Below, piece by piece: positions 6,625 through 42,532 of a DNA stretch of 64,000 bases. Source of the DNA: Bacteroidota bacterium (GTDB lineage Bacteria; Bacteroidota; Ignavibacteria; SZUA-365); NCBI GenBank assembly GCA_003246455.1, contig QKAF01000055.1, positions 1 through 64,000 on the forward strand, given 5' to 3'. The notes under the pieces were generated by a model. It saw nothing but the letters and a program-made list of their open reading frames with translations, was not told where the DNA came from and ran no database searches. The position numbers were made by a program, and so were the translations under genes. Positions within the stretch are counted from its first letter, which is position 1, and each line of letters starts with the position of its first letter.

Positions 6625-6666
6625 GGATGCAGGAAGCAGGAGGCAGGATGCAGGAAGCAGGACCGA
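6625..6666. repeat. degenerate heptamer array 1
   Basis: Six consecutive 7-bp units with the consensus GGA(T/A/G)GCA: GGATGCA, GGAAGCA, GGAGGCA, GGATGCA, GGAAGCA and a degenerate GGACCGA. It is non-coding, between the ABC ATPase gene and the nusB promoter. It is one of five period-7 arrays in the window, each with its own unit. Confidence 0.85.
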
Positions 6667-28806: not shown

Positions 28807-31047
28807 GTGGTGCGACTTCTCTTCATTTCCATTCTCATCGTTTTCTTCGGAGCCGCGGGCTACCTGATCCATGGCGGTCTCGCGGGCGCCCCGGGAGGCC
28901 CCGGCAAGGATCCCCTCGAGAAGCAGCAGCCTGAGCGGTACGATCCGCATTCCACGAACTGGGACGACTACCTCTGGCCGACCGATGCCGGGACGAAACG
29001 GACATCCGATTTCGCGGAGTTCCGGTCGACTCATTTCCATGCGGGCATCGACGTAAGTACCGGCGGCCGGACGGGCTATGACGTCTACGCTGCGCGGGAC
29101 GGCTGGCTGCACGCCGCATACTTCGAGCCGGGCGGCTACGGATGGTTCCTCGTGCTCCGCCATGTCGACGGCTACTATACCTGCTACGCGCATCTCGATC
29201 ATTACAGCACGAAAGTCCTGGATGCGTTCCGCAGTCAGCTCGTCAGGGGGAAGCACTCCTACGGGTACGTGGAATTCAGGAAGGACACCGTCCGCGTGAA
29301 GAAAGGGGAAGTCATCGCTTTCACCGGCGCCACAGGCGCGGGACCTGCGCACCTGCATTTCGAAGTGCGTGACCCTTCATTCAATCCGGTGAACCCCGGC
29401 CTGTCGCGGCACCTGCGTCCGGTGGATTCCCTCCCGCCCGAAATCCGACAGTTGATTCTCGTGCCGCTCGATGCCTCGAGCAGCGTTGACGGGAAGTACG
29501 ATCAGCGGCTGTTCAATACCAGCGGTGCGGGGGATGCCTGGAAAATCCCGGGAATATCCGTTCTTCGCGGACGCATCGGGGTCATGCTGCGTGCACATGA
29601 TCGCGCAGAAGGCGCGTCCGACTATCCGACGCCGTATCGCATCGCGATGTTCGTCGACGGGAAGGAAGTGTTCAGCGCCGTGTCGAATCGGATCCAGGAT
29701 TCCCTCGGCTTCCACATCCGCATCGACCGGGACCATGCGTTGATGCGCGAGAAAAAGGGCGAGTTCCGCAAACTCTTCCGCGAGGAAGGGAATCTGCTCG
29801 AAACTTACTGGCCGAGAGACGCGGAAGCCGGGGTGTTTTCCGCAGCGCATTTTGGTGCCGGGGAGAAAAAAGTGCGCATCGTTGCGAAGGACCTCGCGGG
29901 CAATACGTCGACACTGGCCTTTACGGTAATGATCGCCTCCGACGTGCGTCTGGCCAGCACGCGGGAAGGCAGCGACCTGCAGCTCAAGACGACCGGAGGG
30001 ACGGCACAGCTCGTTCTCGAAGAGCAGGGTGCAAAGGGGTGGACGCCCGCGCGTCAGTGGAAAGGAGAGGAGGCCGCCTCGGGCGTGCGCGTCGACCTCA
30101 AGCAGTACCGCGGGACGACCGTGCGGGCGGTCACCGTTGATGCATTCGGAAACCGCAAGGAACACGCGACCTGGACCCCCGGACCCCTTCACGGTTCCGC
30201 CGGCCGTCTGTATCACCGTCGGGAAGTGATCTACGATCAGATCGTGTATGATCTGAAAACGGCAGCGCCTTTCACCGATCCGCCCTCGGTATTTCTCGTA
30301 CAGGGCGATCGCGAGGAAGCGGGAACGGTCATGCCGGTTTCCGCCAGCGAATACCGCGCCGTGCTTACCGCATGGCCGGGATTCGGGGGAGATGCACGCG
30401 TCGTCGTACGGTACAGGATGGGGGAAAAGGAAATCGAGTGGACCGATGAACTGCGCGCATATCACATCAGCGCGACGCTGGGCGGGCAGCTGCGGTCGAA
30501 GGACGGTCGTTTTGTGATGAGTTTTTCCCCGGCGGATGTTTATCGGGACATGCTGCTCACGGTCGATAAAACCGGGACGGACACCGCTGTCGCGTACACC
30601 GTCGGTCCTGAAGAAATGCCGCTCGCCGGGCGTCCCCTGGTCAGCATTACCCCGGATCCCGGTATGAAACATCCCGTGGTCGTGGCGCCACGGCCGATAA
30701 AAAAATATTCGGATGTGCAGCTGCCCCATTCGGTCGGGGCGCGCATCGGACGCTATCTCGGCACGTTTTCGCTCGCAGAAGACAGTGAGGGTCCCACCGT
30801 GATGGTCGACATCGCGAACCGCAGCCGCGAGCCGGTACGCATCGCCATCAGCGACAGCATCGCCGGGGTGGACTGGGAGACCGTCGTGGCACGCATCGAC
30901 AAGGAGATCGTCCCTCTCGAGTTCGACGAGCGCCGCGGTCTTCTCGTGCTTCCCTACGATGTGTACAAATCCGTCGGCCGCGGAGAGTTCAGCGTCAGCG
31001 TGAAGGACAAGGTGGGGAACGAGACGGTGGTCCGGAGGAAGATGTAG
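28807..31047 (+). CDS. M23 (LytM) family metallopeptidase with beta-rich C-terminal region
   Basis: A 746-aa secreted or membrane-anchored protein. It starts at GTG with GGAGG upstream, then one hydrophobic helix (VRLLFISILIVFFGAAG). The LytM zinc site is intact: HFHAGIDV near residue 80 and HLHFEV near residue 185. M23 enzymes cut peptidoglycan cross-bridges or act as regulators. The following 550 residues are beta-rich, with several domains resembling Ig/fibronectin folds, much longer than a simple LytM protein. It begins 15 bp after the FAH-family gene. Confidence 0.9.
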   Translation: MVRLLFISILIVFFGAAGYLIHGGLAGAPGGPGKDPLEKQQPERYDPHSTNWDDYLWPTDAGTKRTSDFAEFRSTHFHAGIDVSTGGRTGYDVYAARDGWLHAAYFEPGGYGWFLVLRHVDGYYTCYAHLDHYSTKVLDAFRSQLVRGKHSYGYVEFRKDTVRVKKGEVIAFTGATGAGPAHLHFEVRDPSFNPVNPGLSRHLRPVDSLPPEIRQLILVPLDASSSVDGKYDQRLFNTSGAGDAWKIPGISVLRGRIGVMLRAHDRAEGASDYPTPYRIAMFVDGKEVFSAVSNRIQDSLGFHIRIDRDHALMREKKGEFRKLFREEGNLLETYWPRDAEAGVFSAAHFGAGEKKVRIVAKDLAGNTSTLAFTVMIASDVRLASTREGSDLQLKTTGGTAQLVLEEQGAKGWTPARQWKGEEAASGVRVDLKQYRGTTVRAVTVDAFGNRKEHATWTPGPLHGSAGRLYHRREVIYDQIVYDLKTAAPFTDPPSVFLVQGDREEAGTVMPVSASEYRAVLTAWPGFGGDARVVVRYRMGEKEIEWTDELRAYHISATLGGQLRSKDGRFVMSFSPADVYRDMLLTVDKTGTDTAVAYTVGPEEMPLAGRPLVSITPDPGMKHPVVVAPRPIKKYSDVQLPHSVGARIGRYLGTFSLAEDSEGPTVMVDIANRSREPVRIAISDSIAGVDWETVVARIDKEIVPLEFDERRGLLVLPYDVYKSVGRGEFSVSVKDKVGNETVVRRKM

Positions 31048-31070
31048 TGCTGCGCGCAAGCGCGCAGCAC
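31047..31070 (+). other. GC hairpin at the end of the M23 gene
   Basis: A perfect 10-bp inverted repeat GTGCTGCGCG/CGCGCAGCAC with a 4-nt loop starts on the last base of the M23 stop codon. No T-run follows, so it may act in message 3' end protection or be a mobile palindrome. Heptamer array 2 begins on the next base. Confidence 0.6.
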
Positions 31071-31105
31071 GCTGTAGGCTGTAGGCTGTAGGCTGTAGGC
31101 TGTAG
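31071..31105. repeat. heptamer array 2, (GCTGTAG)5
   Basis: Five perfect tandem copies of GCTGTAG, non-coding. Together with the inverted, degenerate GCCTAnn array at 31580-31602 it brackets the four-helix-bundle gene. Confidence 0.95.
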
Positions 31106-31204
31106 GCGCGGGACCGATGCGCGTGGGGCTCGGGAAACTGCATTGCTTCCCGGGCGTAATTGACCCACATTGAACTATCAGAAATACCATCCAGGGAGAA
31201 CATG

Positions 31205-31585
31205 ATGCGTGATTTCAGAAAATTCACTGTCACGAGACTGTCACGTCAGCTGACGGTCGCGATTTATAATCTCCTCCCGCAGTTCCCGGCGGACGAGCGG
31301 TACGCACTTTGTCAGCAGCTGCGGCGGGCGTCAGTCTCGGTCGGGGCAAACATTGCGGAAGGAGCCGGGCGCAGGACAAACCGCGATTTCGCACATTTCC
31401 TGACGCAGGCGATCGGATCGCTTTCAGAGGTGGAGTACCTGCTGCTGCTGGCTGTTGATCTGGGTTTTATCGAGGAAACGCAGGCGCGTGAAATGGATCT
31501 GCTGCAGCAGTCATTGAAAAGGAAACTGTTCCGATTTTACGAATCGCTCGGGATAGAGCCAGATGCTCCGTCACGTCGGGCCTAA
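31205..31585 (+). CDS. four helix bundle protein (S23/bIVP family)
   Basis: A 126-aa protein of the four-helix-bundle family first known from 23S rRNA intervening sequences. The hallmark LRRASVSVGANIAEGAGRR is followed by FAHFLTQAIGSLSEVEYLL. AGGGAG lies 6 nt before the chosen ATG; the adjacent ATG at 31202 is the alternative. No rRNA is nearby. The gene is framed by heptamer arrays in opposite orientation, and the right array supplies its TAA stop. The family's function is unknown; distant relatives act in diversity-generating retroelements, but no reverse transcriptase is present here. Confidence 0.92.
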   Translation: MRDFRKFTVTRLSRQLTVAIYNLLPQFPADERYALCQQLRRASVSVGANIAEGAGRRTNRDFAHFLTQAIGSLSEVEYLLLLAVDLGFIEETQAREMDLLQQSLKRKLFRFYESLGIEPDAPSRRA

Positions 31586-31602
31586 AGCCTACTGCCTATT
31601 GC
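31580..31602. repeat. heptamer array 3, degenerate GCCTAnn
   Basis: The units GCCTAAA, GCCTACT and GCCTATT are followed by the start of a fourth (GC). The consensus is the reverse complement of array 2 in another register (GCCTACA), so arrays 2 and 3 form an imperfect inverted pair around the four-helix-bundle gene. The first unit includes its stop codon. Confidence 0.8.
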
Positions 31603-31639
31603 GAACGAGAACGCCCCGCAGAGCGGGGCGTTCTCGTTC
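31603..31639. terminator. long perfect hairpin between convergent genes
   Basis: A 17-bp perfect inverted repeat, GAACGAGAACGCCCCGC and its complement, with a 3-nt loop, lies between the four-helix-bundle gene and the leftward beta-barrel gene. T-runs are missing on both sides, so it is a probable but atypical bidirectional terminator. Confidence 0.6.
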
Positions 31640-42511: not shown

Positions 42512-42532
42512 GCTGATTGCTGATAGCTGATA
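42512..42532. repeat. heptamer array 5, (GCTGATW)3
   Basis: Three tandem 7-bp units, GCTGATT, GCTGATA and GCTGATA, immediately upstream of the ABC-F start codon, so they probably lie in its 5' leader. Same period as the other arrays. Confidence 0.75.

Follow-up and report, generated by a model that had tools for sequence, protein, structure and literature searches.

The S23 gene and its two arms

The window, by which we mean the whole stretch of 64,000 nucleotides that was analysed, is part of contig C107 of a Bacteroidota genome of 4.1 Mb in 165 contigs. Between a gene for an M23 peptidase and one for a porin-like protein, and hence in no 23S rRNA helix, it holds a short unit in which a gene of the S23 family is enclosed by two tandem arrays in inverted orientation, with a host hairpin on either side:

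31048..31069, no strand: host hairpin TGCTGCGCGC-AA-GCGCGCAGCA, right after the M23 peptidase gene and outside the unit (from sequence and fold)
31071..31107, + strand: 5' arm, (GCTGTAG)5 plus GC, a tandem array of period 7 (TRF score 74, 100% match)
31108..31201, + strand: leader from the 5' arm to the gene; a motif resembling a ribosome-binding site, AGGGAG, lies at 31193-31198
31205..31585, + strand: S23 / 23S-rRNA-IVP-like four-helix-bundle gene, 126 amino acids (alternative ATG at 31202, giving ATGATG)
31580..31602, + strand: 3' arm, GCCTAAA-GCCTACT-GCCTATT-GC, a degenerate array in inverted orientation to the 5' arm, to which it is complementary at 17 of 19 bases (p about 0.001) and with which it pairs in the RNA fold
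31603..31639, no strand: host terminator-like hairpin that separates the porin-like gene from the unit, to which it does not belong (from sequence and fold)

The encoded protein matches Pfam PF05635 at 110.1 bits (cut-off 33.8, E=7.5e-32), which is the only Pfam match of the gene, and TIGR02436 at 106.9 bits (cut-off 24, E=6e-31), and a profile built from this protein and its relatives hits the PDB entries 2GSC (1.2e-37) and 2RLD. The S23 structure 2GSC is a pentamer of four-helix bundles, and PF05635 resembles Avd (PMC10053308). S23 proteins are under purifying selection, with pN of 0.11 against pS of 0.82 in one pair (L002/L059), and an AGGGAG motif comparable to that of the window's leader stands upstream of other S23 genes in the same taxonomic family. 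A sigma-70 consensus promoter was looked for at the window's unit and none was found, and the Rfam search returned a sub-threshold sX6 hit only.

A preliminary description of this DNA had placed the gene between (GCTGTAG)5 and a GCCTAnn array, had read the right array as the reverse complement of the left in consensus, and had assigned the TAA stop of the gene to the first unit of the right array; these readings hold, the coordinates being confirmed, the arms being complementary when set in register, and the stop codon falling at 31583-31585. Positions of the same geometry drawn at random from the window score as high in 0.1% of cases, and in the predicted RNA fold the two arms are paired, with the gene looped out between them (z = -4.3). 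The arm-pair score of 14.0-14.5 is nonetheless weaker than most and lies at about the 99th percentile of swapped flank pairs (14.4, or 15.5 with wider flanks). Taken alone the window's own pair is modest; the case rests on comparison across the family.

Units of the 5' arm recur in the same genome at C104:6972 and at C85:34483, where a GCTGTAG array (C85:34483-34504) follows immediately on the terminator of a gene for an S1-like ribosomal protein and is cut off by the end of the contig; further units may be hidden by assembly breaks at such arrays. Two other arrays occur in the window itself. One, of GGAAGCA type at 6625-6662, has neither a gene nor an inverted partner and is followed by the palindrome GGACGAGCC...GGCTCGTCC, which is also found next to GGAAGCA arrays at other loci of the genome (L078, L080, L082, L083); the other, at 42512-42532, is a short GCTGATA array of three units with no obvious partner.

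Inverted arrays at S23 and GxxExxY genes

The window's genome carries three S23 genes, and all three are bracketed by inverted arrays, those of the gene on contig C55 being GGAAGCA/GGAGGCA heptamers and those of the gene on contig C18 being of GGAAGGGGC type. The repeat unit differs at each of the three loci, and the two sides of any one locus share their unit in inverted orientation. From the preliminary description of heptamer ends around the gene, the inverted arrays can thus be kept and a fixed heptamer cannot, the sequence of the unit being specific to the locus. S23 genes are present in all 12 genomes of the taxonomic family, again flanked by inverted arrays of many different units.

A further 80 loci, picked by protein similarity alone in one scan of 85,000 species genomes, cover Bacteroidota, Chloroflexota, Acidobacteriota, Pseudomonadota, Patescibacteria and others. 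The resulting test set comprised 123 S23 genes with both flanks, which are not fully independent because some loci share an ancestral site, and the controls were swapped flank pairs and the other genes of the same loci. With the narrower flanks, the inverted match between 5' and 3' sides exceeded the 99th percentile of swapped pairs at 58% of the S23 genes, compared with 1% of swapped pairs and 8/355 (2%) of the other genes; when the flanks were extended into the gene end, 80/123 (65%) passed. Inverted arrays are therefore commoner at S23 genes than at the other genes of these loci, a comparison of the kind that the preliminary description had proposed, and its question of whether other copies would lack flanking arrays is answered in the negative for the majority, with about a third of the S23 genes showing no detectable inverted arm pair. 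Same-strand flank matches reached a score of 15 in 11% of the S23 genes. Tandem periodicity reached significance in 83% of the 5' flanks and in 74% of the 3' flanks, with period 7 (and its multiples 14 and 21) dominant, and both flanks were periodic at 73/123 S23 genes versus 13/353 others.

Among these loci, S23 units recur behind a gmd-like gene, which looks like a sugar-nucleotide dehydratase, in L043, L052, L071 and L075, with repeat units that differ by genome; the site is a possible insertion hot spot.

One of eight control genes with inverted flanks resembled a GxxExxY protein (PF13366, PDDEXK_3), a family unrelated to S23 and of nuclease-like fold, to judge by its Pfam name. Inverted arms were found at 18/24 PF13366 loci of the family (swapped pairs, 5%) and at 50-57% of 30 loci of the phylum (swapped pairs, 1-2%), so that 50-75% of cases resemble the S23 units in having inverted short arrays, with periods of 8-10 where the S23 units have 7. 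That two unrelated proteins each keep a period of their own argues that the arms belong to the element of the protein and are not background repeats. The array units seen at GxxExxY loci (L138:3188-3593, L176-L200 and L283-L311) include CACAGAG and CACGAAG.

Occupied and empty sites

The M23 peptidase and porin genes are paired in 11/12 genomes of the family, and between them the S23 unit is found in the window's genome (G000), in G009 and in G011, the last two carrying it in flipped orientation relative to the neighbouring genes. In G000 it sits in the interval bounded by the stop codon of the M23 peptidase gene and a terminator-like hairpin, and likewise, though flipped, in G009. Three of the four members of the genus thus carry the unit at this site; the fourth, G010, has 162 bp between the two genes, with neither unit nor arrays. 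The unit is also absent here from G001, G007 and G008, and in G006 and G005 the site holds gene-less inverted arrays around a terminator. Where the arms have changed they have changed together, with TAGGCTG in G000 and TACGCTG in G011. The S23 proteins of G000 and G009 are 56% identical at this site and the neighbouring genes 81-87% identical, a disparity that only hints at two insertions, and the S23 protein tree, used to ask whether the two units are a single insertion, gives AU p = 0.052. No recent multiplication of S23 units within a genome was seen in the family.

Empty sites, which the preliminary description had proposed to seek in close relatives, are accordingly present at the window's own locus, and more precise ones came from plasmids. 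A search of plasmids with the window's protein returned mostly cyanobacterial S23 genes, and a search of phages gave no S23 match. On Nostoc plasmids that are about 90% identical around one site, the site is filled in L316, L322 and L323 and empty in L318-L321 and L324. The insert, of about 418 bp, consists of arm, S23 gene and arm, begins with AATCAGGAGTCAGGAGTCAG and finishes with CTGACTTCTGGATTCT; no arrays occur at the empty Nostoc sites. The same unit lies at unrelated sites in plasmids of Trichormus, Aulosira and Scytonema, with 78-81% identity across arms and gene, and in these three copies homology stops at one common base of the right arm.

Further filled and empty sites were found. 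Plasmid pNsp_c (L324) carries a different S23 unit, with arms of GGGAAAA type, one gene further on, where its relatives are empty. Between nrdB and nrdA (L317/L326) the unit has the ends TAGGGAG...CTCCCTA and lies on the strand opposite to the operon; between cas6 and cas4 (L314/L325) the near-empty site holds a short array of its own (AATTACG); a further pair stands between hlyD and an ABC transporter gene (L315/L327). Target-site duplication amounts to at most a 5-bp TTCTA-like repeat at one site, with none clear at the others.

Comparison of these plasmids shows, at the level of sequence, that the cyanobacterial units end at their arms, that these accompany the gene when it moves, and that insertion has taken place between genes, sometimes inside operons, at sites previously free of arrays. 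The clean filled and empty pairs come from cyanobacterial plasmids and not from the window's own phylum, and we infer that the window's copy acts like them. Two hallmarks of a mobile element were found, namely defined ends on the Nostoc plasmids and presence or absence within one genus at the window's site. The suggestion of a compact and possibly mobile unit, made from the window alone, gains support from these inserts of arm, S23 gene and arm and from the matching empty sites.

Gene-less arrays, alternatives and the proposed element

Inverted ends around a single gene describe the S23 units well, as first proposed, but the ends are not bound to the gene, since gene-less inverted arrays exist and at least one of them derives from a gene-bearing unit by internal deletion. 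In L331 (pC052_A, 29963-30132) the middle of the S23 gene is lost and its two ends remain together with the two arms, and this copy is, judged by its sequence, an internal-deletion derivative of non-autonomous type. Other gene-less hairpins, with the same AGTCAGG arms, are polymorphic among the Nostoc plasmids, and in Xanthomonas codiaei the arms of an S23 unit between carA and carB (GGGGACC) also occur elsewhere in the genome as gene-less inverted pairs. On two Nostoc plasmids, gene-less hairpins are nested in the loop of another, at the same position and with different interiors (L319:492-800 and L323:492-760).

Genome-wide array counts were obtained by pattern searches and from a 400-kb sample of G007. 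In this sample period-7 arrays are the commonest class; shuffled sequence (200 kb) yielded no arrays, whatever the period. Of the intergenic arrays, 7/11 have an inverted partner at a distance of 11-155 bp with no gene between, and in this one genome gene-less inverted arrays outnumber gene-bearing ones. The conserved core of one G007 gene-less hairpin has only two copies, and therefore no large family exists there. Array units are specific to genomes, GGAAGCA being found in G000 and G009, with hardly any in G001, and GATTAGACG in G006 alone.

We consider it likely that the feature in the window is a copy of a small mobile element, here termed the S23 hairpin element, made of two inverted short-tandem-array arms, usually of 7-bp period, and an S23 gene. 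The alternative that fares best, though we hold it to be unlikely, is that the arms are a device of RNA only, serving RNase III excision or the protection of mRNA, and that the gene has spread by ordinary recombination in which they take no part. It draws on the anatomy shared with the intervening sequences (IVSs) of 23S rRNA, which are excised by RNase III (PMC4990558), on the pairing of the arms in the RNA fold, and on units that lie within operons, such as those at cas6|cas4 and nrdB|nrdA. Yet homology between unrelated sites stops at the arms, which alone mark the ends of the unit, gene-less arm pairs are polymorphic and dispersed on their own, and the nrdB|nrdA unit is on the strand opposite to the operon.

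S23 genes might also have entered the loops of older, independent inverted arrays, in the way that IVSs occupy rRNA helices, and the abundance of gene-less inverted arrays among the intergenic arrays of G007, their presence at the window's site in G006 and G005, and the nested insertions within hairpin loops would agree with such a history. We regard it as quite improbable. The empty Nostoc sites and G010 are free of arrays, and arms and gene together are conserved between unrelated sites; on the Nostoc plasmids, where the gene has moved with its arms, the explanation therefore fails. That the arrays are a host feature, products of replication slippage or terminators in intergenic DNA with S23 genes as incidental passengers, is very hard to credit, for although arrays do occur without a gene and beside terminators, and heptamers are common simple sequence repeats in bacteria (PMC4692102), inverted pairs stand at 58-65% of S23 genes and at 2% of the remaining genes of these loci, and S23 and GxxExxY genes each retain their own period.

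The S23 hairpin element contains no catalytic gene. As single-stranded DNA or as RNA the unit would fold into a hairpin by pairing of its arms, the S23 protein, as a pentameric relative of Avd, may bind this hairpin, and the unit would be copied or joined by a putative enzyme, of the host or acting in trans, which could be a polymerase, a reverse transcriptase or a nuclease. Hairpin-mediated template switching could allow both arms to keep one repeat unit as units vary between loci. By analogy with the 23S rRNA IVSs, an RNA hairpin could let RNase III excise the S23 gene from operon transcripts, and insertion into an operon would therefore be tolerable. With no clear target duplication, a single-strand or reverse-transcription route fits better than cut-and-paste, which is proof of neither.

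The S23/IVS genes, known since the 1990s, look like selfish inserts in rRNA, and S23-bearing IVSs have been called selfish elements; to our knowledge no way of moving has been described for them. Heptamer repeats have been catalogued in cyanobacteria, Xanthomonas and others, and we know of no cause assigned to them. The IVSs of Leptospira and Coxiella with an S23p open reading frame share with the units described here the protein family, a size of about 0.42 kb, and terminal inverted repeats that form a long stem with the reading frame in the loop; in Coxiella, a 28-bp terminal stem is cut by RNase III and three GACAGAT heptamers precede the reading frame (PMC4990558). The S23 units differ in lying between protein genes, in having arms that are both tandem arrays with a unit that varies by locus, and in showing gene-less derivatives and empty sites. 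As the plans are related, the S23 hairpin element is conservatively filed with the IVS kind.

REPIN/RAYT systems work alike in combining dispersed gene-less palindromic elements with rarer gene-bearing versions that have the same ends, as the AGTCAGG hairpins, the GGGGACC pairs and L331 do here among other copies, but the S23 gene encodes a four-helix bundle and not a Y1/HUH transposase, and the ends are variable tandem arrays and not REP palindromes. Avd of diversity-generating retroelements is similar in fold and sequence and acts as an oligomeric accessory in a copying process (PMC10053308), whereas the S23 unit is too small for a reverse transcriptase or a pair of template and variable repeats. 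The heptameric repeats GGGAATC of Xanthomonas, which form 70-75 inverted pairs per genome (PMC4692102), and TAACTGA of Beggiatoaceae (PMC4679880) are of the same kind as the S23 arms; the parts of these papers that were consulted draw no link to S23 genes. Here, the GGGGACC arms of the X. codiaei S23 unit are shared with gene-less pairs.

Searches of the open-access literature found no paper that connects S23 genes with heptamer arrays outside rRNA, and it appears new in that literature that non-rRNA S23 genes form mobile units ended by inverted tandem arrays, with derivatives that lack the gene, and that this layout extends to GxxExxY genes. Joining S23/IVS genes to heptamer repeats offers a testable explanation of both, as a mobile hairpin element with a dedicated protein in many phyla. 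The mechanism would be unusual in that the ends conserve form and period and not sequence, and that the two ends change together. A wider proposition, on which our own judgement is evenly divided, is that these units represent a new class of transposable elements in which recognition of the ends depends on form, that of an inverted short-tandem-array hairpin of fixed period, and not on sequence. At least two unrelated proteins would each drive a period class of their own, the S23 four-helix bundles that of 7 bp and the nuclease-like GxxExxY proteins that of 8-10 bp. If true, such a class would explain many bacterial heptamer repeats together with the 23S rRNA intervening sequences.

GIY-YIG genes were considered as a third cargo and rejected; those of UvrC type had no inverted arrays where both flanks were readable. 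Some small GIY-YIG genes (L204, L213 and L225) lie just behind tRNA-like genes, and on their far side the 3' part of the tRNA is repeated in direct orientation, as if they had been inserted at tRNA ends. In G007, positions 3709346-3710400 of C1 hold a tandem triplication with three GIY-YIG genes of equal score at a spacing of 427 bp.
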